Part shown: positions 4,383 to 30,533 of the stretch, piece after piece
How the letters are laid out: each line of letters starts with the position of its first letter
Numbering within the stretch: the first letter of the stretch is position 1
IMG/VR virus record: IMGVR_UViG_3300028735_000129
Span: 1 to 30,533 of that record
Reading direction: 5' to 3' (one strand)
Length of the DNA: 30,533 bases
DNA from: a virus
Translations under genes and position numbers: made by a program
Notes under the pieces: model-generated
What the model was told of the DNA's origin: nothing
The model's database searches: none
The model's input: the letters and a program-made list of their open reading frames with translations, nothing else

Positions 4383-5483
4383 TCAAGCGCAGTACTCATA
4401 TGTTGCGACAGCTCGACCGATAGAAGAGGAGCTGTTTAAACTCTTAATACTGTGCGGTTTCCCCGTTTTGCTAACACTCACCAGTCGCCATGAGGATGAC
4501 TTCTGGCAATGATTTAATATAGACGGGTGGCTTGCCGTAATATGCATAACGCTATTAGATCTTTTGTGATACATCTCCGCGATACAATCCATGACTCTTG
4601 AGCCGATACCGATGCCTTGATAATCCGGCAGCGTCACAATTCGACTGATCCGGTAGATTCTGCGATTTTCTGTTTGAAGCGAGCGTTTCTTAGAGCCGTA
4701 GCAATAGAGCACTGCTACAAAGCATACTGGCTGTTCACCCCAGAGGGCAACATAACATGATGCCCCCGACGATAACTTGTTGGTCAAATAATGATGCGAG
4801 CTAAACATTCTCCAGAGATGTTGTTTTGCACGGTGGATTTCCAATGTGATTGAGGGTCGCTGAAGACACCCTCGGGTGAATTCACGCGTTGCCATGTCCA
4901 GCACCCAATCTGGTTCCAACCATTCGAGGATGTCGTAGTGGCAAGTGACGGCTACAAATTTTCGCTGAATGCGCCCACTTCGAATTGATTTAGCGACCGC
5001 AGCCGACCCGATTTTGGCGACTGTGCGGTCAACAACGCTCGTAAACTCGTCAAACACAACAACGGGTTTAGTTGTGTCGGCGAGGGCATAGGCGAGGTCG
5101 CAGCGGAACTGTTCACCATTGCTCAGAACGGAATAAGGCTTCACCCAACTTGGTGGGGAGCTGAGCCCAACCGCCGTTAATATGCTTGTGATGTCTTTGA
5201 TGGATAGATCGCTTGGGAAATGATCAATGAGAGCACGATCGGTTGGCCAGGGCGGGTTGTGGGTGTATTCGTCTGGCCACAAATGGCGGGCCACTGTTGT
5301 TTTCCCGCTGCCGGATGGCCCGACAATCACACCAATCTTCCAGTCAAAACTGGTGAGGTCGGGGATCTTCAACTCCCAGTTTTGTGTGAGGCGTTGGGCG
5401 AGAGGAACGTCAAACATCCCCGCGATCTGGGCAACGCGAAAGGAATCGTATAGTGGGCAACTCTTGGTGATCTTAACTTGCAT
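4383..5483 (-). CDS. Soluble ABC-type ATPase fused to a GNAT acetyltransferase domain
   Basis: The first 210 residues of this 366-residue protein are an ABC ATPase: Walker A GPSGSGKT (55-62), ABC signature VLSNGEQFRCDLAYAL (119-134), Walker B VVVFDEF (141-147) with the catalytic Glu, and a switch His (182) in VTCHYD. There are no membrane segments, so it is not a transporter by itself. The C-terminal part is a GNAT acyltransferase: RISRIVTLPDYQGIGIGSRV (278-297) holds the Q-G-x-G-x-G acyl-CoA loop, and the domain ends in ATYEYC. Base composition is unlike the neighbours: 4501-4560 counts 38% GC, while 3601-3660 in terL counts 72%, which suggests recent acquisition. It follows a ParB-like gene by 7 bases. 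A GNAT fold is also used by the Mu DNA-modifying protein Mom, so DNA-base modification is one possibility; another is protein acetylation. Confidence 0.8.
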   Translation of the reverse strand: MQVKITKSCPLYDSFRVAQIAGMFDVPLAQRLTQNWELKIPDLTSFDWKIGVIVGPSGSGKTTVARHLWPDEYTHNPPWPTDRALIDHFPSDLSIKDITSILTAVGLSSPPSWVKPYSVLSNGEQFRCDLAYALADTTKPVVVFDEFTSVVDRTVAKIGSAAVAKSIRSGRIQRKFVAVTCHYDILEWLEPDWVLDMATREFTRGCLQRPSITLEIHRAKQHLWRMFSSHHYLTNKLSSGASCYVALWGEQPVCFVAVLYCYGSKKRSLQTENRRIYRISRIVTLPDYQGIGIGSRVMDCIAEMYHKRSNSVMHITASHPSILNHCQKSSSWRLVSVSKTGKPHSIKSLNSSSSIGRAVATYEYCA

Positions 5484-7791: not shown

Positions 7792-9666
7792 TCATTCGTC
7801 GTTATCATCTACTTTTGATTGTTTGAAGTTCGCATAGGTGGACGGGCGGTTGCGCCCACTTGTCCAGCGATGGATCAGGCCCAGGCCTTCCGCCCGGCGC
7901 AGTAGTTGTCCGGCTTTCCAGTCGGAGAGCCCGGCCGTGTTCGCCTCAGCCAGGATCGCGTCACGTGTCTTGGGCGTGTCCGACACGAACGCCGCCGCGA
8001 ACTGCTCCGCGTCCCAAGTCGGTTCACTTGCTTTGGTTTCGTCCGTTTCCGGCTTCGGTTTGCGCCTTGACCGTTCGAGTCGCAGATCGGCCGGGTCAAT
8101 GTCGTCAGCCGGCGACCACACCGGGAAGGACCAGCGCAGGCACCTTGGCAACACCGGCGGCCAGGAGCGCACGGCCGCCTCCAACACCGCCACGCCATCT
8201 TCTTTGTGTGGGCGAAGAATCAGGTGCGTGTCGGTCGCTCGGCTTTGACTGCCGGCGCCTGCCCCTACGTCGGTGACCGACTTGCCAGCCTGACTCCCTT
8301 TCGTGGTGTGGTGGATCAACACGAAGCAGCAGCCCAAGAGGTCGGCGTAGCGGTCGATGGCGTTGTAAACGTTCGCCATCGTGCCGTTGTCGTTCTCGTC
8401 CATCTCCTTGGGCATGAAACGATACATGGCATCGAGGATGATCACCCGGAATCGCCCCGGCTCCAGTGAGCGAAAATATGCCCCCAGCGAGAAGATGTCC
8501 TGCCAGTGCCCGCGCAGGTTCTGCACGAAGACGCGCTGGCCAACCTCGTCGAGCCCGATCTGCCGCGCCGCCGCGACCTTGGGAATGCGGTTCGCCGAAG
8601 TCTCACCATGCAACTCGTTGTCGATGATGAGCACATTCCCCGGATCGGTCTCGAAGGTGTCAAGCCAGGGGCGACCGGTAGCAATGGATAGCGCTAAGTC
8701 GATGACCAGCCAGGACTTACCGATCTTGGGGGCAGATATGACGTTCATCGTCTCGCCTTGGCGCAGCAAGCCGTGGATCACCGGCCGGCGCAGGTCAGGA
8801 TAGCGCGCCACCAGGTCGGCTAAACTGACCGGGGCCAACTGCTGCGGCGCCTGCCCCCGCATCAATTGGTCCCAGTGCCCCTCGACAAGGGCCACCGACA
8901 CTTCGTCCGGTGCGTACCTAGCAACGCTTGTGGCAACCCCTTCAACTTCTCGCTCGTCGAGCGGTGGTCGGCACCGGTCCTTGTTAACCTGATGCAGGGC
9001 GGCCGCAATCTCTCTCTGTGTCATCCCGCGGCGGCGCATAGCTCCCGCCAGTCGGGTCAGGGTTTTATTTCGTCGGCCTTGCGGGATTATGTTTGGTTCG
9101 TCGGGAGCGGTGGCGGGACACGTCGGGGCCGGCGTACTAGTCAAGGCATCGAGTTCCTGAACCAACCAGGATGGCGGCTCGGGCAATCGTTCCAGCGGAT
9201 CGTCGAGTCCCAGTTCCGGCGCCCAGCGATACGAACCGTCTTCGGTCACCGACGGTGCGACTACGAAGTAGCCACCATCAGCGCGAATATCAACCTTCGG
9301 GGCAAGCTGACTCTCGGAGCAACGCCAGTTCTTGCCCGTCGGTTGTCGGAACAGGTAGTGCCGGCCGCCGCGCGGCGTCATGGCAACAGCACCGGCCCCG
9401 GCCAGGTCGGCGGCTCGCTCGGGGTCACCCGGCCAGGGGTTGTTCGCGCCGTCAATGTCAACGACTAGCAAGCCCTCGGTTGGGATGCCGATATTTGCTC
9501 GCGGATGCTGCGCCCACCAGCGCTCGATCTGCTCCTGATCCGTGGTCGCGTCCTTGAAGCCGTGATCGGTCAGCGGTGCTTTGCCGCCGGGCACGCACGG
9601 GAAGACGCGGTAGCCAAGCTCGGCGTAGTGAAGCGCGGCGGACAGCAGATCGTTTGATGTCACCAT
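7792..9666 (-). CDS. Prim-Pol domain / RepA-like helicase (primase-helicase)
   Basis: This 624-residue protein joins two replication activities. Residues 5-170 form a bifunctional primase-polymerase domain: catalytic DIDG (70-73), RGGRHYLF (99-106) and VDIRADGGYFVVAP (125-138). Residues 198-252 resemble a primase C-terminal helical module. Residues 296-520 form a RecA-fold ATPase of the RepA/AAA_25 type: Walker A SAPKIGKS (311-318), Walker B RVIILDAM (407-414) and sensor IHHTTKG (451-457). The C-terminus (from about 560) looks like a winged helix. It would prime and unwind DNA at the origin, with the host polymerase completing synthesis. It overlaps the SF2 helicase gene by 7 bases and is followed by the palindromic region. 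Confidence 0.9.
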   Translation of the reverse strand: MVTSNDLLSAALHYAELGYRVFPCVPGGKAPLTDHGFKDATTDQEQIERWWAQHPRANIGIPTEGLLVVDIDGANNPWPGDPERAADLAGAGAVAMTPRGGRHYLFRQPTGKNWRCSESQLAPKVDIRADGGYFVVAPSVTEDGSYRWAPELGLDDPLERLPEPPSWLVQELDALTSTPAPTCPATAPDEPNIIPQGRRNKTLTRLAGAMRRRGMTQREIAAALHQVNKDRCRPPLDEREVEGVATSVARYAPDEVSVALVEGHWDQLMRGQAPQQLAPVSLADLVARYPDLRRPVIHGLLRQGETMNVISAPKIGKSWLVIDLALSIATGRPWLDTFETDPGNVLIIDNELHGETSANRIPKVAAARQIGLDEVGQRVFVQNLRGHWQDIFSLGAYFRSLEPGRFRVIILDAMYRFMPKEMDENDNGTMANVYNAIDRYADLLGCCFVLIHHTTKGSQAGKSVTDVGAGAGSQSRATDTHLILRPHKEDGVAVLEAAVRSWPPVLPRCLRWSFPVWSPADDIDPADLRLERSRRKPKPETDETKASEPTWDAEQFAAAFVSDTPKTRDAILAEANTAGLSDWKAGQLLRRAEGLGLIHRWTSGRNRPSTYANFKQSKVDDNDE

Positions 9667-16994: not shown

Positions 16995-17156
16995 TCACCG
17001 CTCATCACTCGTCACCGTAGCCGCCGTGATGGCTCCGATCAGTGTGATCGGAGCAGCCAGCCACCAGGCCCCGATCGAGAGGGCCAGGCCGCCAGCCAGG
17101 ATGCTGCTCACCACCACCACCGCCACTCCCGCCTTGATCATTTGCTTGCTGCCCAT
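16995..17156 (-). CDS. Small two-helix membrane protein
   Basis: The ATG at 17156 has AAAGGAG seven bases upstream, an excellent site; a further ATG at 17186 in frame lacks one. The 53-residue product is mostly two hydrophobic segments (residues 8-24, AGVAVVVVSSILAGGLA, and 28-46, AWWLAAPITLIGAITAATV) with short polar ends. It is the first gene after the promoter at 17205-17233, so it is probably expressed immediately after infection. Possible roles include superinfection exclusion or host membrane alteration; nothing in the sequence proves one. Confidence 0.65.
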   Translation of the reverse strand: MGSKQMIKAGVAVVVVSSILAGGLALSIGAWWLAAPITLIGAITAATVTSDER

Positions 17157-17276: not shown

Positions 17277-18752
17277 CTAACCTAACCGCTTAACGCATAT
17301 AGATTTGTGGAGATAGGGTACCGTGGCCACCCACGGCCCAAACTCGCTGAGCGGCGACCTGGTCGGGTCGAGGGCGCGGTAGCCGCCGAGGTGCGTATCG
17401 TGGTCGCGTTGGTGCCGGTCCTGTGTGACGACCAGCCAGCGCCAGCGGCCGGCTCGGGTCACATCCTCGAGCCACCGCCGCACCAGGTCCGCCGGCCAGT
17501 GGTGCAGCACGTCCTTGAGCATGAGCACATCGCCGGCGGGTAGCTCGGCTACTCTGGTGATGTCACCAGTACGATACTCGACCCGATCCGTACTCGGCGG
17601 CAGGACGCGACCCACACAATCGATGCCGATGACATGCATCCCCGAAGCCTCGGCGATCGCTCGGGTCACGCGGCCATCACCGCATCCAGCATCGACTGCC
17701 GTCTGCCATCCGCCGACCGCCGCCATCGCCGCAACGATCCGAATATACTCGGTAGCCTCACTGCCCCCGTCACCCCACAGCCCGCAGCGGTAGATGTGGT
17801 CGAATACTCGCGCGGGGTCGTCGTCGCGCCGCAGTACGTCCGCTAGCTCGTCCCATACCTCGGCCTCTCGGGGCAGGTGGTAGGCGGGGCCACTGTAGCC
17901 CTTGCGCCTGTCTGGGATGTCCTCGATGCGCCAGAGCTTGCCTTGGCACCGATGCACGATCAGATCCTCGCCCGACTGCCGACAGATAAACGCCGGGTGT
18001 CGCCAGTCGGCGCGGCCGATCTCGTGATACGGCCAGCCGCCGGCTGCGAGCGCGATCCGCCACTGGTCCTGGTCGCCGAACCCGTGCCGAAAATAGTAAT
18101 CGCTATGCTGACACAGCCAGTCGGTCGCCATGATAAGCGGCCAAGCGCGTTCTCGGTCGATCCATAGTTGCCCGCCTTGGATCGGCGGCACGCCAGCATC
18201 ACCGCTTGGCCAGACCATCGGCCACTTGACATGGCTAGCTGTGTTCGGCAAATCGCGCCAAAACACGAACGGGGCACGTTCGAGGATCGCAGCATGCTGC
18301 GCCGGGTTCGCTACGCAATAGGCGTCGGCGTCCAAATAGAGCACGCGGCGCAGGTCGCAGTGACGGATGGCGTGCAGCTTGGCCTCCCAGCCTCGTAGGA
18401 TGCGAGGCTTGGTGCGCTCGGCCCAGTCGAGCGCCGAGACGATGGTCACGTCGAGGCCGCGCACGTCGGCCGGCTCGATCGGCTCCGGGTCAGCTCGATG
18501 GCCATGCCAGACCTGAATCGGTCCCTCGTAGCCGAGCCGCCGCAGCATGCGACACCCGACCGCGATACCCGGCCAGTAGCGGCCGCCGCCCACGTAGAGC
18601 ACGCCGAAGTCGTGGACGTGGCCAGCGTACTCCTCATCCTCAGCCAGGTCGATGACGCGCTCAAGCGCCTCACGATGCGCACGCACGACCAGCGGGCAAG
18701 TATGCCAGTTGGACGCTCGGGGCTGTTCGGGTTCAGGTAGCGGGTCGGTCAT
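17277..18752 (-). CDS. Glycosyltransferase-methyltransferase fusion
   Basis: I choose the ATG at 18752, which overlaps the upstream stop as ATGA (491 residues); the frame extends to 18776. The N-terminal 320 residues resemble a GT-A glycosyltransferase: LRGWEAKLHAIRHCDLRRVL leading to YLDADAY (DxD metal-binding, about residues 140-143), and QGGQLWIDRE further on. The C-terminal 150 residues are a class I SAM-dependent methyltransferase: AVDAGCGDGRVTRAIAEA (motif I), VIGIDCVG, YRTGDITR and MLKDVLHHWPADLV. It could add and cap a sugar on a virion protein, host surface or DNA; the acceptor is unknown. It is the last gene of the late block. Confidence 0.78.
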   Translation of the reverse strand: MTDPLPEPEQPRASNWHTCPLVVRAHREALERVIDLAEDEEYAGHVHDFGVLYVGGGRYWPGIAVGCRMLRRLGYEGPIQVWHGHRADPEPIEPADVRGLDVTIVSALDWAERTKPRILRGWEAKLHAIRHCDLRRVLYLDADAYCVANPAQHAAILERAPFVFWRDLPNTASHVKWPMVWPSGDAGVPPIQGGQLWIDRERAWPLIMATDWLCQHSDYYFRHGFGDQDQWRIALAAGGWPYHEIGRADWRHPAFICRQSGEDLIVHRCQGKLWRIEDIPDRRKGYSGPAYHLPREAEVWDELADVLRRDDDPARVFDHIYRCGLWGDGGSEATEYIRIVAAMAAVGGWQTAVDAGCGDGRVTRAIAEASGMHVIGIDCVGRVLPPSTDRVEYRTGDITRVAELPAGDVLMLKDVLHHWPADLVRRWLEDVTRAGRWRWLVVTQDRHQRDHDTHLGGYRALDPTRSPLSEFGPWVATVPYLHKSICVKRLG

Positions 18753-19234
18753 GGCAGATATACCGCAAGCCCCCATCGAGGGTACACTACGCCCCGACGA
18801 GTCGTATCGGACCAGTGCTCGACATACTGAACGGTGGCTACCGACTGCCTCCCGTTAATTGGGCAGTGATAGTGGACTCGGCCACGAACGACCCCGGCTA
18901 CTATGACCCAATGACCAGCAACGCAGCAGATGACGGGCCGGCTACGTCTAGTCTGATAGCGCAGGTCGTCGCAATCCATTACACCCGCGATGACATGGAG
19001 CCCGAGCGACCAAAGCGCGGCCTCGAGAGTATCTGGGCTGGTGCCGTCGATCGGCGTAGACTGACGGCCACGAGGACGGATGCCGTAATACTCACAGACC
19101 GCGCGAACCACAGCGTCCCCGCAGTCATGATCGTCCTTTTGCCGGATGTCGGGGATCGGAAGAATCATAGTGGGTTCCCCGCATTCCTCCGCCGAACACA
19201 TGCTCAGATACCGATTGTAGCGCCAGCAATTCAT
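18749..19234 (-). CDS. C39-like cysteine peptidase
   Basis: The core reads LPIPDIRQKDDHDCGDAVVR, AVCEYYGI, with the oxyanion Gln32 and catalytic Cys38 of the C39/papain-like fold; the catalytic His is His108 in CCVAGHWVIVAGVV. The third catalytic residue, normally an Asp in a D-P motif, is replaced by HCPINGR (124-129), so the triad may be completed otherwise or activity may be altered. The start is uncertain: ATG 19234 overlaps the upstream stop (ATGA), while ATG 19168 (MILPIPDI) has GGGGA seven bases upstream. It could cleave a host-wall peptide or a phage protein late in infection. Confidence 0.7.
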   Translation of the reverse strand: MNCWRYNRYLSMCSAEECGEPTMILPIPDIRQKDDHDCGDAVVRAVCEYYGIRPRGRQSTPIDGTSPDTLEAALWSLGLHVIAGVMDCDDLRYQTRRSRPVICCVAGHWVIVAGVVRGRVHYHCPINGRQSVATVQYVEHWSDTTRRGVVYPRWGLAVYLP

Positions 19235-24797: not shown

Positions 24798-25003
24798 ACC
24801 ACGCCCCTCGTAATACGGCCTGCCGGTAGCACGTCGGCCAGGTCGTGTCCGTCGGTGCTAGCCAGGATGCGGTTGATTTGCTCGATACGATCGAGATAGT
24901 GCTGCTGACTTTGCGGCCAGTTCATGCCCGGGTAGATGGTCTGGTTGGCTAACGCTTGCGCGTAGTTAGTGCGCTCTTGGATCAGCTGTTCGCGCCAGGT
25001 CAT
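24794..25003 (-). CDS. Small unknown head-tail region protein
   Basis: The 69-residue protein (TWREQLIQERTNYAQALANQ, then a Trp/Pro centre and a helical QQHYLDRIEQINRILAS) is not recognised, but lies with neck genes and overlaps the next one by four bases. Its length and helical character could suit a head-tail joining or accessory role. GAGGG is upstream of the ATG. Confidence 0.65.
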   Translation of the reverse strand: MTWREQLIQERTNYAQALANQTIYPGMNWPQSQQHYLDRIEQINRILASTDGHDLADVLPAGRITRGVV

Positions 25004-25025
25004 CAGCAGACCCTCACAGTAGCCC

Positions 25026-25100
25026 CGCCCGGCCGGGCGTCGTTGAACCTCTCCGCTCCAAGGCGGACCGCCCGCCTTGCTAAAACGCCCGGCCGGGTTT
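25026..25100. other. Structured gap after the serine protease gene
   Basis: The 100-base gap (25004-25103) contains CGCCCGGCCGGGCG (25026-25039), a perfect 14-base palindrome; its near copy CGCCCGGCCGGG at 25086-25097; and between them an 8-bp hairpin CAAGGCGG/CCGCCTTG (25059-25066 with 25072-25079). On the minus strand the first palindrome met is followed by CGTTTT, a weak terminator signature. Partial termination or processing between the lysis-like and tail genes is plausible. Confidence 0.5.
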
Positions 25101-25103
25101 GGC

Positions 25104-25856
25104 TCATGGCGTCCAGCCCGGTTGACGCACCGGCATCTCGATTGGCTTCACGTCCAAGAAGTCCGTCGGCGCGGCCAGCATGCGGCGGATCACTGTTGGG
25201 GATGCGCCCCAGACGTCGCCGACGCCGCCGATGCGAGTCGTGCAGCACACCGGGGAAAGCAACCGGCCTTCGGCATCGGTGATGATCCCGCCGCCGCTGT
25301 CACCGTGCGATACGCTCAGGCGGTAGCGCAGCTGGCCGTTCGAGTCTTCGCCGGCCAGCAGTACGCCGGATTCCCGGTTGCCCGGCTTGTCAACCCCGTA
25401 CCCACCGTGCCAGACCTGCGTCTGGATCGGCGGCACGGCCTCGGCGATGAACGCGAAAGGCAGGTCGTCATAGTGCTCGGTGACCACGATCGCACAGTCA
25501 GCCTGGCGATCGATCGCGCTGACACTGCCCTGGAGCGATCGGCCGTCGCGGGTCAGGATCTGCACCGATTCGCCCACTCGCTTGAAGCAGTGGGAAGCGC
25601 TGACCAGGTGCCAGCGGCCGTCCGGCCGACGAGGCCCGACGATCGTCCCCGAGCAGTACCCATTCGTCATGATGACCTTTGCGATCGCGTTCCAGGGGTC
25701 GGGCTTGGGTTCGGGCTTCGGTTCGGGCTTCGGTTCGGGCAGGGGCAGCAGTGGGCCACGGCCGCAGCCGCCGACATACAGGGCCGTGCCGCCGCCCAGC
25801 AGGGTCAGTAGCGCAGTCAGTAGCGCAGTCAGAAATGATCGCCAAGGCTCACGCAC
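25104..25856 (-). CDS. Trypsin-like serine protease with signal/lipoprotein-like N-terminus
   Basis: The start is a GTG at 25856 with GGAGG seven bases upstream; the frame continues to 25991 but only through the upstream gene. In the 250-residue product, residues 8-29 are hydrophobic and end in YVGGC31, a lipobox-like site. A Pro-rich spacer with repeated EPKP units follows (41-54). The protease domain has His89 (LVSASHCF), Asp120 (RQADCAIVV) and Ser187 (SHGDSGGG), a complete chymotrypsin-fold triad. It would be anchored outside the cytoplasmic membrane. It follows two small genes in a lysis-like cassette and may degrade a proteinaceous wall, or be displayed to cleave host surface proteins. 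Confidence 0.86.
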   Translation of the reverse strand: MREPWRSFLTALLTALLTLLGGGTALYVGGCGRGPLLPLPEPKPEPKPEPKPDPWNAIAKVIMTNGYCSGTIVGPRRPDGRWHLVSASHCFKRVGESVQILTRDGRSLQGSVSAIDRQADCAIVVTEHYDDLPFAFIAEAVPPIQTQVWHGGYGVDKPGNRESGVLLAGEDSNGQLRYRLSVSHGDSGGGIITDAEGRLLSPVCCTTRIGGVGDVWGASPTVIRRMLAAPTDFLDVKPIEMPVRQPGWTP

Positions 25857-26100
25857 GGCACAACCTCCGGAAAATAAAAAGCAAGGCCAGAGCGAGTAGT
25901 AGCAAGACGGAGCTGGCCAAGGCCCCGTCCCGCAGACCGACCAGGTATGACGCACGCAAGGCAGACGATTGGGCCAGCGTGGCGGCCTCATCGACCGATT
26001 GCGCGGCCCGCTCGACCGCCTTGGCCGAGCGGTCGATGCTCACCATCGTCGCCCGGCCAGTGGTGATCAGGTCACGCAGCGATGCCTCTTCTGGCGTCAT
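25849..26100 (-). CDS. Single-TM holin-like or spanin-like protein
   Basis: The ATG at 26100 has GGCGGAG upstream. The 83-residue product has an amphipathic/helical stretch (SAKAVERAAQSVDEAATLAQ) and a C-terminal hydrophobic helix (about residues 58-76: GALASSVLLLLALALLFIF), then a basic end (RRLCRA). It overlaps the upstream and downstream genes by a few bases, inside a set including a secreted protease. The topology fits a holin or spanin subunit, but no family is recognised. Confidence 0.6.
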   Translation of the reverse strand: MTPEEASLRDLITTGRATMVSIDRSAKAVERAAQSVDEAATLAQSSALRASYLVGLRDGALASSVLLLLALALLFIFRRLCRA

Positions 26101-26104
26101 GGTG

Positions 26105-26281
26105 TCACTCCGCCGGGATGAGCGCTCGCAATACCCGCAGCACCAAGTCATCGGCCTTGTTGGGCGAGGCCTTCACGATCTCCTCGAGCGCGGGCGAATG
26201 AATGATCGCCCGCAGTACAGGCAGCAGCTCTTTCAAGTCACTTCGTGGCTGGCCGAAGAGTTGGAGCAACCAGGTCGTCAT
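26105..26281 (-). CDS. Small unknown protein (58 residues)
   Basis: This gene starts at ATG 26281 with GAGGG upstream and encodes MTTWLLQLFGQPRSDLKELL, then PVLRAIIHSPALEEIVKASP and a helical end. It is not recognised. It sits between the major capsid gene and the membrane/protease cassette, with its stop just before the next ribosome site. It is helical and amphipathic in part, so it might be a small membrane-active or regulatory protein. Confidence 0.65.
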   Translation of the reverse strand: MTTWLLQLFGQPRSDLKELLPVLRAIIHSPALEEIVKASPNKADDLVLRVLRALIPAE

Positions 26282-26293
26282 ATATCACCCTCA

Positions 26294-27499
26294 TTAGCTC
26301 GGTAGGTTACGACCCCAGACACGGGGTTGCACACAGACAGGCACGCCACATTCGGACACGCTATACCGTACCCAGATGTCGTGGGTGTACCGCTGGGATG
26401 GACTCTGCTCTTCATTGACCTCGATTGGCCACAGCTGGTAGTAGCGCCAAGCCTGCGTCAGGTCGCCGAAGTACCAGGTGCCGGTTGCGTTGGCCTGTGT
26501 CACGCCGGCCGCGATCTGCCGCGAGTAGAGGTGTGGGCTGACCAGTAGTGTGACGCCGGGTGTACCGCCTTGACCACTGTAGGGGTTGCCCGCGACCACC
26601 GTATTGCTGCCCGACCCGCTGCGAGTCTCGATCGCATTGAGGATGCGGTAGGCGAGCGACCGCCGCTGCTCAGGCACTAGCATATGCCGCTGTAGCAGTA
26701 CAGCTGGACCATTCGTACCGGGGATCGTGTTTGCAATCAGCAGATTGATCGCGTCATCCAGGTCGGTCCAGTCAGTCAGCGCGTTGGTGTGGCTGTTGAC
26801 CCAACGACCGCTTGTCAAGAACAAGTTGCTGGTTACGTCTCCGGTGTCGCCAACCCGCTGCTCGATGACGCAGTTAGGAATCAGCCCCGCCACCATGTCG
26901 CAGATCAGGTCTTCCTTCATCCGCGCGATCGCGGCCCCGGCGTCACGAGCCGCTTGGAGCAACGACCCCGTATCGTCCTCCAGGATCGCCTCACGCGTGA
27001 TCGGCAGCTGAAACCCTTTCTTGCGGGTGGGCAAGTTCTTGATCCGCTCGCCGTAGATACCGAGAATCGGATACTCTTGCGATTCCTGAATATCCCGAGC
27101 GTTCTTCCCTTGTTCCAACGGAATCGTCGGGCTGGGAAATTCCGAACGTCGCTTACGGCCCTCAACGACCGGCAGCACCTGAGACAGCACAGTATCTGGT
27201 AATCGTGCGCCTTCCATGACCGCAGCATCCACTATACGCTGCGAGACGAGGCGAAACGCACTAGTACTGATTGCTCCAGTCGCTTCAAGCAGTCGCATGG
27301 AATCGGAGCGGGCCTCAAGCGCTCGCAAGCCATCCCAGCCAATCGAACCACCGGCAGCCTCGATAAGATTGCAAGCTAAGTCGCGGAGGCTGAATTCGTG
27401 CGGGCGAATATGACCTGCACGAAGCCCCTCGGTGAGATCGGCAAGCGTGCGGTGAGAGTCTAGCCGCCAATCTCGCACTAGGCGTGATGCCTGAATCAT
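26294..27499 (-). CDS. Major capsid protein
   Basis: The 401-residue protein follows protease/scaffold and decoration-like genes and has a capsid-like C-terminus: VTLLVSPHLYSRQIAAGVTQ, ATGTWYFGDLTQAWRYYQLW and YTHDIWVRYSVSECGVPVCV. A middle region with ITREAILEDDTGSLLQAARD resembles the HK97-fold spine and P-domain. GAGAGG lies upstream of the ATG. It would be assembled around the scaffold and matured by the protease encoded at 27949-28869. Confidence 0.83.
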   Translation of the reverse strand: MIQASRLVRDWRLDSHRTLADLTEGLRAGHIRPHEFSLRDLACNLIEAAGGSIGWDGLRALEARSDSMRLLEATGAISTSAFRLVSQRIVDAAVMEGARLPDTVLSQVLPVVEGRKRRSEFPSPTIPLEQGKNARDIQESQEYPILGIYGERIKNLPTRKKGFQLPITREAILEDDTGSLLQAARDAGAAIARMKEDLICDMVAGLIPNCVIEQRVGDTGDVTSNLFLTSGRWVNSHTNALTDWTDLDDAINLLIANTIPGTNGPAVLLQRHMLVPEQRRSLAYRILNAIETRSGSGSNTVVAGNPYSGQGGTPGVTLLVSPHLYSRQIAAGVTQANATGTWYFGDLTQAWRYYQLWPIEVNEEQSPSQRYTHDIWVRYSVSECGVPVCVQPRVWGRNLPS

Positions 27500-27948: not shown

Positions 27949-28869
27949 TTAAATCCTCCAGTTAGCCAGACGGTCTTTGATGTCGCCGTTCGTGGCGGGC
28001 CAGGTGCTTGTGCTCATCGGTTGAGCAATGAGGCGCTGCACGTCCTCGATTAGCGCAGCCCGGCGTTGTGGGCTGCGCTCACGACGGATCGCCTCGCGGA
28101 TTCGCGGCGGCACTCGCGCTGGGTCGAGCTTGGCCTCGGCCATCTGCTGGTCGGCCTGTTCAGCCGTCGTGTACTCATCGAGCTTGGCCTTGAGCGCTTC
28201 GAGTTGGGCCTTTAGGTCGCCCATCGGCGTAGCGATCTCCTGCTGAATCTGCTTGCGCAGCTCGTCCAGCAGATCAGGCCGTTTTGCCTGGAGATCCTCG
28301 AGCGTCAATGACTGGTACAGCGCTTCGAGTGGGTCGGTCGTTGAGGCGGCGGCGTCGGGGGCCGGCGCCGGATCTTGTTCGCGTAGCCTGGATGGCATAG
28401 ACATATCCTCGAAAAGGGAACGAGTCGTCGCCGGTTCGGCGACCAGGTCAACAGATCGCACAGACTCAATGGCTTCGACGATGGCTTGTCCATCGCGGGT
28501 CACGATGCGGCCTTCGGCGTCGTGCGACAGGCCGACGGCGGCGGGGTGATGCTCGGCGTCCCAGAGGAGCTGAGCGGCGGCGGGGTGTGCGGGGTTGATG
28601 TGCAGGTCGGCGCGCAGGCCGCCGTCGCGGTGTTGCACGCTGGTCAGCCGACCGATCTTGTCGCGATAGCTGCGTCGGCCTTCGGGCTGGTGGTCGATGT
28701 AGACGGGTACGCCCTCGTACAGCTTGGCCGCTGCACTCATGGCGTCGGTGGTGTACGTCCGGCCGTTCGCGGAGTGTGAGCCCAGGACGAGGACATCGCG
28801 AATGACGCCGGCCTCGCGATCAATTCGCGAGCGGGTAGTTAGGGCGGAAATGTACTCAACAAAACGCAT
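27949..28869 (-). CDS. Prohead protease fused to scaffolding region
   Basis: Residues 1-155 are the protease: VLVLGSHSANGRTYTTDAMS, VYIDHQ (His60), HPAAVGLSHDAEGRIV (Ser115) and SVDLVAEPATTRSLFE (Asp141), which fits the herpes/HK97-like prohead protease with the A-T-T-x-S-L-F ending. Residues 195-265 are coiled-coil (LLDELRKQIQQEIATPMGDL, KAQLEALKAKLDEYTTAEQA), the scaffold that shapes the prohead and is then removed. The start ATG sits at the edge of a perfect 11-bp hairpin, which may limit translation (see 28868-28906). Confidence 0.87.
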   Translation of the reverse strand: MRFVEYISALTTRSRIDREAGVIRDVLVLGSHSANGRTYTTDAMSAAAKLYEGVPVYIDHQPEGRRSYRDKIGRLTSVQHRDGGLRADLHINPAHPAAAQLLWDAEHHPAAVGLSHDAEGRIVTRDGQAIVEAIESVRSVDLVAEPATTRSLFEDMSMPSRLREQDPAPAPDAAASTTDPLEALYQSLTLEDLQAKRPDLLDELRKQIQQEIATPMGDLKAQLEALKAKLDEYTTAEQADQQMAEAKLDPARVPPRIREAIRRERSPQRRAALIEDVQRLIAQPMSTSTWPATNGDIKDRLANWRI

Positions 28870-28960: not shown

Positions 28961-29542
28961 TCATCTATCTAAATATATCGCCGTGGCTGGTTTTGGTTCA
29001 AGTGAACCACTAGGCAAAATATTTAGTGTCTCCGGGTCAACGACGACTATATGATCACGCCAGTCGCGGCGGTTAACGCGCTCAATAAAATGCGCTCGAT
29101 ACACCCAGTTCGGAGTGGTCGGGATTGGCGGCAAGTCGTCGTCGCTGAAGACAACGTCGCCGTCACCACGAATGTGCGGCGCTAAAGGGGCCAGGAAAGT
29201 TGTCATTTGCTGCACCTTGTCGGCCACGGCCAGAGCCGCAGCGTAGACGTAGGCGGCTGGTTCGTTGACCTCAGGGTAGCCGTCTAAAAGATGGGGCTGC
29301 TGTAGCCGCCAAACGATTGATACTTCCTCGGGGATTGTTCCCGCCAAAGGATATACCATGTCGATCACGCGCAACTGATGCGGATCGCCACCGGGCCAAA
29401 AACAAATGTAGACTAGGTCATTACTGTCTTCAATCCAGGCCCTGGGTCGCTTCCCCATCGGCGGCGGCACTTCTCGTGGTATTTCGATCGTCATCATCTG
29501 CTGGATAAGATCTACCGCAGTTCTCTCATACCTTTGATCCAT
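28961..29542 (-). CDS. Unknown head-region protein (193 residues)
   Basis: It reads RYERTAVDLIQQMMTIEIPR, DLVYICFWPGGDPHQLRVID, and ends with IVVVDPETLNILPSGSLEPK. I do not recognise it. It overlaps the MuF stop by 31 bases and precedes the prohead protease, so it is probably expressed with head genes. An alpha/beta fold is likely. The start lacks a good ribosome site, but the overlap with MuF offers coupling. Confidence 0.62.
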   Translation of the reverse strand: MDQRYERTAVDLIQQMMTIEIPREVPPPMGKRPRAWIEDSNDLVYICFWPGGDPHQLRVIDMVYPLAGTIPEEVSIVWRLQQPHLLDGYPEVNEPAAYVYAAALAVADKVQQMTTFLAPLAPHIRGDGDVVFSDDDLPPIPTTPNWVYRAHFIERVNRRDWRDHIVVVDPETLNILPSGSLEPKPATAIYLDR

Positions 29543-30533
29543 AGCTCAAGCCCTTTGGGGTCTCCGAATGCTGCTAATGCCGGGTTGGCGATTAGCTGCT
29601 CGCCCATGGTCGTTATGAATTCCACTCCCTCGTTGTCACCAAAGCCCTTCTGCTGATAATAGTATAGCCCGGGAGTGTCATCTTTCCGCAAGCGGAAAAC
29701 ATCGCCGTCTACTATCTTGATCCGCTGGCTAAGCATCGTCTTGGCATACGTTTCGCCAAAGCCAAAGCGCCCACCTGAGTATAGGTAGTCCACTCTATGC
29801 AGCAGCTCGTGCACGATACGATGTACCGGCATATTGGGCCGGATAAATATTTCATCGGTACGTGGCTGATAGTACCCTTGATTTTGGTTGATGTATACTC
29901 GTACAGGCTTCAATTCGCGGTCGGGCACCACCCAGCGGACCCACTCGATGGCCGCATCCAAGCGTTGCCGCAAATCGTCGGGTAACGTTTGGCGCGCTAC
30001 ATATGTCATCGGTCGTGCTGGTTCCGGTCGTCGGATTATCCGCCAGATTGCGTCGCGAAGCACGTCATGCGAGACCTGTGGCGAGTATGCGGCCGCCTGG
30101 GCCCAGGCTGCTACGGCTTGCTGGATGGCCTGTACAGTTTTTTGCGGCGACGGTTGGCCGCGGCCTTTCTGGGCAGCCGGCACACGGCGGGCGATATAAT
30201 CGCGGGCTTGCTCGGGCGTCAGATCCTTCGGCAGATCAGCACGCGCTAGCACGCGCTGGGCGATACCGGCACCCAGTGCCGATTGTGGCGATACGGGCGC
30301 TTGCACCGGCGAATCAATCGCAAACTGCTGGAAATAGCGTCCGGTCAGGACCGCCGCTCGATGGTCGTATGCAAATCTCATGGAGTCGCCATCGCTTTTC
30401 TCGCCTTTGATTTTCTTGACTGATCTTAGGCTCCCGTCTTTGTTGAAGGCTAACCATGGATCCACGCCACCGTACTGACTTAAGATCGCGTCGTACCGTT
30501 GGGCGCCGATCATTCGGCGGCGTGTCCGTACAT
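29512..30533 (-). CDS. MuF-type protein, C-terminal part with HExxH metallopeptidase-like domain
   Basis: This is the C-terminal half of the protein that begins at 1168; the frame is open to the right end and joins through the 129-bp overlap. After a linker and an Ala/Gln-rich region, the last 130 residues have an alpha/beta core with MPVHRIVHELLHRVDYLYSG, that is, HELLH (codons at 29797-29811), the HExxH zinc-binding motif. A later EGVEFITTMGEQLIANP may supply the third ligand. A peptidase domain fused to a MuF protein resembles the MuF-linked effector domains of phages, which may be injected with the DNA. Catalytic activity is inferred from the motif only. Confidence 0.83.
   Translation of the reverse strand, partial: VRTRRRMIGAQRYDAILSQYGGVDPWLAFNKDGSLRSVKKIKGEKSDGDSMRFAYDHRAAVLTGRYFQQFAIDSPVQAPVSPQSALGAGIAQRVLARADLPKDLTPEQARDYIARRVPAAQKGRGQPSPQKTVQAIQQAVAAWAQAAAYSPQVSHDVLRDAIWRIIRRPEPARPMTYVARQTLPDDLRQRLDAAIEWVRWVVPDRELKPVRVYINQNQGYYQPRTDEIFIRPNMPVHRIVHELLHRVDYLYSGGRFGFGETYAKTMLSQRIKIVDGDVFRLRKDDTPGLYYYQQKGFGDNEGVEFITTMGEQLIANPALAAFGDPKGLELWIKGMRELR
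30405..30533. repeat. Right copy of 129-bp terminal overlap
   Basis: This copy matches bases 1-129 apart from three transitions at 30430, 30441 and 30443. It shows that the two ends are one locus. The changes affect codons for residues near the MuF linker (Ser/Asn and Glu/Lys). Confidence 0.9.

Follow-up and report, generated by a model that had tools for sequence, protein, structure and literature searches.

Tailed phages commonly organise their lysis functions in holin-endolysin cassettes, in which the gene of a small membrane protein lies beside that of an exported or exportable degrading enzyme and both are translated late. Among bacterial proteases, DegS, one of the periplasmic serine proteases of the HtrA (DegS/DegP) type, has an N-terminal membrane anchor and a catalytic domain located outside. 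A peptidase can also act as the wall-lysing enzyme of a virus, as described for the pseudomurein endoisopeptidases PeiR, PeiP and PeiW of methanogen viruses, whose hosts lack ordinary murein (PMC6189367; PMC4592898). Viruses must open whichever barrier really holds the cell, and for planctomycetes of the Gemmataceae type a debate going back to the 1980s concerns whether they depend on murein or on a sacculus of protein (PMC8567305, PMC4432640, PMC2754498). One account describes the peptidoglycan-synthesis genes of Gemmataceae as notably absent and cysteine-rich YTV proteins as present in wall preparations (PMC8567305), while Jeske et al. 2015 found that Gemmata obscuriglobus has peptidoglycan and is sensitive to lysozyme (PMC4432640). 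Phages of such hosts might therefore still be expected to have a murein hydrolase.

The locus considered here belongs to the virus record IMGVR_UViG_3300028735_000129, which was analysed over its whole length of 30,533 nucleotides (the window). Its two ends repeat each other (positions 1-129 versus 30405-30533, 126/129 identity, 3 mismatches), so that, despite the classification of the record as linear, the genome (about 30.4 kb) is essentially complete. The genes called in the window are carried by the minus strand, and the features relevant to this work are the following:

25104..25856, minus strand: predicted exported trypsin-fold serine protease, 250 aa (PF13365, GTG start, triad, fold model)
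25849..26100, minus strand: 83-aa single-TM protein (hydropathy, homologue beside a papain-type cassette)
26105..26281, minus strand: 58-aa soluble protein (family of 40 members, alignment)
26294..27499, minus strand: major capsid protein, the upstream neighbour in the same operon (PF25209, E 1.4e-16)
25003..25103, minus strand: strong GC-rich RNA hairpin in the gap that separates the protease gene from the structural gene after it (MFE, shuffles)
18749..19234, minus strand: Peptidase_C39-like protein (PF03412, 29 bits against a cut-off of 22)
16995..17156, minus strand: 53-aa protein with hydrophobic stretches, an alternative holin candidate (hydropathy 2.27)

The preliminary description of this DNA had proposed that the three genes at 25104-26281 are translated as one unit, and their layout agrees with it. 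After the major capsid gene come, all on the minus strand, the 58-aa gene, the 83-aa single-TM gene and the protease gene, separated by a 12-nt gap (capsid/58-aa), a 4-nt gap (58-aa/membrane) and an 8-nt overlap (membrane/protease), an arrangement that is translationally coupled. Only 12 nt separate the end of the capsid gene from the 58-aa gene, and the block is therefore an insert in the capsid operon. A separate protein of the window (27949-28869) gave weak head-protein matches in the family scan. The gap of about 100 nt located 3' of the protease gene contains a very stable hairpin (25003-25125; MFE -68.6 kcal/mol, z -3.71, with 1/200 shuffles equally good) formed by a long GC-rich outer stem that encloses a second stem, possibly an attenuator or a processing site. 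The block resembles a holin-endolysin cassette in having a small membrane gene beside the gene of a late, apparently exported enzyme, but it differs from one in that no peptidoglycan hydrolase is present, the enzyme carries its own export signal, the membrane gene is not adjacent in all relatives and the whole block lies within head-tail genes.

Read mechanically, the protease ORF extends over 25104-25991 (295 aa). The better start is the GTG at 25856, which is preceded at 7 nt by a perfect GGAGG, was also chosen by the gene caller and gives the 250-aa product. Trypsin_2 (PF13365) is the sole Pfam domain above cut-off (42.3 bits against 27.6), and no murein-cleaving catalytic domain was found, so that, strictly speaking, the protein is no endolysin. 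The complete His-Asp-Ser triad noted earlier is confirmed by an alignment of 17 diverse relatives, in which His89, Asp120 and Ser187 are invariant, as are four cysteines (C68, C90, C204 and C205). The window protease begins with a hydrophobic anchor, after which come EPKP repeats; in most relatives an additional domain follows what looks like a classical signal peptide. A hydrophobic N-terminus of the export type is found in 73/78 called family members, and 73/78 contain both the HC and GDSG motifs, the five motif-deficient members being either cut by contig ends (L072, L073, L074) or called as short ORFs (L071, L086). In one of the latter (L071:10244-10654) the N-terminus is missing, which may reflect a frameshift or a start in another frame. 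The initial reading of a signal or lipobox-like N-terminus therefore stands for the anchor and the EPKP repeats but not for the lipobox, because the VGGC motif is shared by just the window, L002 and L011/L003 and is missing from L013 and the other aligned relatives; lipoprotein character was accordingly rejected as a family feature.

Export signals were judged by a hydropathy test rather than by SignalP, and the test also flagged structural proteins. With this reservation, the protease was the only flagged non-structural protein in 9/22 records (G001, G002, G003, G014, G015, G016, G017, G019, G021); nothing was flagged in G023, where the protease ORF was called short, and further proteins were flagged in the other 12/22.

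In the AlphaFold2 model of the protease (pLDDT 82), residues 52-234 match the protease domains of DegP/DegS/HtrA. The best PDB fold is 3otp_A (Z 19.6, 175 residues, rmsd 2.8), and the top DegP/DegS matches range over Z 19.6-19.4 and rmsd 2.8-2.9 for 173-175 residues. In common with these periplasmic enzymes, the window protease has the trypsin fold and the triad and, like DegS, an N-terminal anchor that would place the catalytic domain outside the membrane. It departs from them in the conserved extra cysteines, in its phage late-gene location, in the additional N-terminal domain of most of its relatives and in the PDZ domain, for which no match was found, the protein ending shortly after the trypsin domain. 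The NCBIfam HtrA equivalog likewise stayed far below its threshold (21 bits, cut-off 450). The likeness to HtrA is thus a statement about predicted fold, and by the PDZ criterion the protease is not an HtrA member. Compared with the pseudomurein endoisopeptidases, the window enzyme is a serine trypsin, and no wall-binding repeats were recognised in it. The PHROG family phrog_9683, annotated only as "protease", was matched by 10/17 family members (best E 1.1e-5), with the window protein reaching only E 0.0075. A role as a head maturation (prohead) protease was considered and rejected on the grounds of the fold and of the export-type N-terminus.

The family was represented by 9 viral loci in a first scan and by 67 viral and 12 genome loci in a profile scan. 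Eleven of these 12 genome loci bear titles of Planctomycetota lineages (Gemmata, Fimbriiglobus, Gemmataceae, Isosphaeraceae, Planctomycetia, Planctomycetota), and the twelfth, a MAG contig titled Fimbriimonadales (L081), shows the gene order of the planctomycete phages. Capsid genes of the window type are present in 3/12 genomes carrying the protease family. Among cultured phages and plasmids, tblastn with the protease gave no match, and the window capsid protein had none among cultured phages. A search of 392 Planctomycetota genomes returned 44 matches with E<=0.001, the only clear family member being that of Gemmata sp. IIL30 (E 5.9e-159); the other 43 (1.7e-8 or weaker) are read as other trypsins. 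The IIL30 genome (G039, the genome of L083) has three window-type capsid genes besides the protease element. In a Fimbriiglobus MAG (L084:6337-7350) the protease gene occupies a neighbourhood that is not phage-like and may be a remnant or a domesticated copy.

The protease occurs in unrelated phage backbones. It follows the capsid gene in the window, L013, L014 and L019, precedes a portal-like gene in L002 and L011, and in most loci lies between the tail tube and chaperone genes. In L017, L050, L075, L078 and L022/L083 it comes after tail- or fibre-type genes, mostly beside small membrane genes, and in L017 it is joined to a membrane segment. Neighbourhood counts exclude the shorter duplicates L001, L003-L006, L008 and L010, and the protease ORF of L048 was not called. 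Lineage-A gene names (tube, chaperone, TMP, HTA, cement) were read from sequence and order, only the window counterparts having been scanned against families. In L050, the gene of a matrixin-type metallopeptidase with FG-GAP repeats (8595-9494, PF00413) immediately precedes those of the membrane protein and the protease.

The membrane ORF (25849-26151) is better read from the ATG at 26100, which has GGAG upstream and lies 4 nt past the 58-aa stop. The resulting 83-aa protein has a single TM (hydropathy 2.63), an amphipathic N-terminal part and a basic C-terminal tail, and the family scans gave no match above cut-off. It is homologous to the membrane protein that precedes a papain-type protease cassette in L165, L173 and L175 (pairwise BLASTP, E 3e-5 to 4e-5), so that one membrane partner is common to two different proteases. 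It is a candidate holin- or spanin-like partner. The membrane gene is coupled to the enzyme gene in the window, L002, L003/L011, L013 and the papain-type cassettes. In lineage A no such gene is found next to the protease, and no other small membrane protein was found in most protease-bearing records of that lineage (G005, G011, G014, G015, G016, G019), which may be incomplete.

As to the 58-aa protein, its family has 40 members encoded mostly elsewhere in the head-tail block. In lineage A the gene lies between those of the head-tail adaptor and the tail terminator, away from the protease, for which reason a lysis function was rejected. Three of 11 family members weakly matched phrog_402, of unknown function (best E 0.0033). 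Given its usual position, the protein was not counted in the protease unit and is probably a small conserved protein of the head-tail region. The notion of a lysis cassette of three genes is consequently weakened, both by the 58-aa gene and by the siblings, most of which lack an adjacent membrane gene. The same three-gene order, which the preliminary description had proposed to look for in other phages of the host group, is in its strict form confined to the window, L002 and L003/L011, and a conserved cassette in that strict form was discarded.

A different kind of evidence came from sibling phages sampled independently of the protease, through the tail chaperone (80 loci kept of 122). A window-type protease was found in 41 of these loci and another exported protease in 15 (CysA in 5, CysB in 2, PA2 in 8), none being recognised in the remaining 24. 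For the 54 loci in which the block is fully covered the corresponding numbers were 33 window-type, 4 CysA, 2 CysB, 5 PA2 and 10 without a recognised protease, and two protease classes occurred together in 0/54. The chance of such zero overlap would be 3.7e-6 for independent loci, but the records share ancestry and the loci are not independent; collapsing at 90% chaperone identity leaves 17 block-covering clusters, one of which mixes the window-type protease, CysB and none. The 10/54 loci without a recognised protease were examined, and records G027, G028 and G029, gone through one gene at a time, yielded no candidate. The slot between tube and chaperone is occupied by CysA in 5/5 cases and by the window-type protease in 40/41, the remaining locus beginning inside the block, while CysB and PA2 occupy the cement-adaptor slot.

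PA2 is a Trypsin_2 protein, a trypsin different from the window type. CysA and CysB have no Pfam match but have Cys-His-Asn positions in common, and the CysA model (pLDDT 73) resembles enzymes of the papain/C39 type. Its top folds are tied among PeiR, CtaG, phytochelatin synthase and C39 peptidases (Z 11.4-10.7), the match to PeiR, the archaeal-virus lysin, reaching Z 11.4 over 148 residues at 3.4 A; it is therefore the replacement enzyme that resembles PeiR in fold. A profile search of PDB sequences gave no match for the window protease or for the CysA/Cys-type protease. Both Cys types are accompanied by a second exported protein, of which the L144 representative approaches Thioredoxin_2 (26.0 against a cut-off of 27) and the L161 one gives only E 0.11; the TrxB set is without a Pfam match and is read as thioredoxin-like.

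No muramidase, amidase or transglycosylase had been recognised in the window at the outset, and this holds for the searches made. Amidase_2, Phage_lysozyme, M23 and SLT (Pfam) were found in 0/27 records and CHAP, NLPC_P60, Amidase_3 and M15_4 in 0/39, with control genomes positive every time (1 to 10 of 14). Many records are fragments, so that absence in any single one is weak, but the window is complete and G001 seems close to it. The families searched thus revealed no endolysin elsewhere, with one candidate left, the C39-like protein at 18749-19234. This protein adjoins a metallophosphoesterase, and the aspartate that usually follows the histidine seems to be replaced. It could be, as could another unrecognised protein, the true endolysin, the protease only assisting, for instance by opening outer layers as spanins do. 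PF03412 scores above cut-off in it, and a C39-type domain is described as the virus lysin in PeiR (PMC6189367), yet this family was found in the window alone (1/27 records) and no obvious export signal was seen, so that the C39 protein cannot be a general solution; we regard this explanation as very unlikely.

With modest confidence, we favour instead the view that the protease is a late, exported wall protease that replaces a peptidoglycan endolysin and serves as the exit enzyme of the phage. Envelope opening at the end of infection is the simplest account because the protein is co-produced with the capsid, is often the sole flagged exported non-structural protein and is replaced by other exported proteases, and because the murein hydrolases searched for are absent. 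Further support comes from the hosts, that is, from the 11/12 genome loci of Planctomycetota together with the wall reports for Gemmataceae; from CysA, which shares the slot and the membrane-protein homologue, keeps Cys-His-Asn with CysB and has a PeiR-like fold; and from the other backbones, in which genes of tail or fibre type precede the protease, mostly with small membrane genes close by. It had been suggested beforehand that a protease could do the work of an endolysin if the host wall were of protein, and the host group, the missing lysins, the exclusive replacement and the shared membrane partner all lend weight to this idea. Counting against it are the biochemical signs of murein in Gemmata obscuriglobus (PMC4432640), the 10/54 loci without a recognised protease, the missing classical holin partner in most protease-bearing lineage-A records, the position within the head-tail block, a usual place of accessory "moron" genes, and the C39 protein, which could be the lysin of the window.

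That position would also suit a quite different function. An anchored surface protease might clip the phage receptor or other surface proteins, resulting in superinfection exclusion or host conversion, and a single exported or anchored product encoded at a variable, moron-like site among structural genes would suit this role, as would the existence of temperate relatives, with L083 located in the genome of Gemmata sp. IIL30 and integrase-like ORFs, read by eye and not scanned, near the protease in L017 and L050. However, translational coupling to the capsid genes leaves the window protease no space for a promoter of its own, and it should therefore be off in a lysogen; moreover, unrelated proteases swap one for one, and exclusion would leave these genomes without any of the lysis enzymes searched for. 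We consider this function unlikely. Still less likely is wall remodelling for entry or for chronic release without bursting, despite the lack of a holin candidate in most lineage-A records and a report of a planctomycete phage leaving its host without lysis (PMC10945688), since that phage comes from a different planctomycete, and since a protein with an N-terminus of the export type would hardly be packaged into virions that are assembled in the cytoplasm.

For the favoured role as exit enzyme, the evidence consists of the export-type N-terminus, the intact triad, the predicted fold, the late-operon position, the host group, the absence of the lysin families searched and the one-protease-per-phage exchange, all derived from sequence, and from these we infer the part in lysis, the substrate and the role of the membrane protein. 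In the proposed mechanism, the protease would be made late, together with the capsid proteins, and exported by its own N-terminal signal or anchor. Once outside the cytoplasmic membrane, it would digest protein that holds together the planctomycete (Gemmatales-type) envelope, with the small membrane protein as a possible partner in timing or membrane damage. In sibling phages the same role would fall to a different trypsin or to an exported papain-like protease with its thioredoxin-like protein, which might reduce wall disulphides or keep the cysteine protease active.

More tentatively, phages of Gemmatales-type planctomycetes may share an endolysin-free, proteolytic lysis in which each encodes one exported protease, of at least three kinds (HtrA-like trypsin, second trypsin, papain/C39-like with a thioredoxin-like partner), by which a protein wall linked by disulphides is cut and perhaps also reduced. 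Searches of the open-licence PMC literature brought up no planctomycete phage described as lysing its host by means of a protease. If true, a proteolytic mode would be added to phage lysis of bacteria, and phage gene content would provide independent evidence that a protein wall, and not murein, is the load-bearing barrier. Phages that lack the eight searched murein-hydrolase families (C39 apart) but carry interchangeable exported proteases make the wall question directly testable, and may yield lytic enzymes as well as genetic tools for this phylum, which has few.

Some other features of the window deserve mention. The Mu-F-like minor head gene spans the contig junction (2-1168 plus 29512-30513), with a HELLH motif in its distal part. 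Between the portal and minor head genes lies that of a small protein (1122-1340) which we take to resemble the regulator CsrA, and a relative of it is encoded before the prohead gene in L006/L019. Positions 4383-5483 encode one protein combining ABC-type ATPase and GNAT acetyltransferase domains, and 17277-18752 another in which glycosyltransferase-like and methyltransferase regions are found together.
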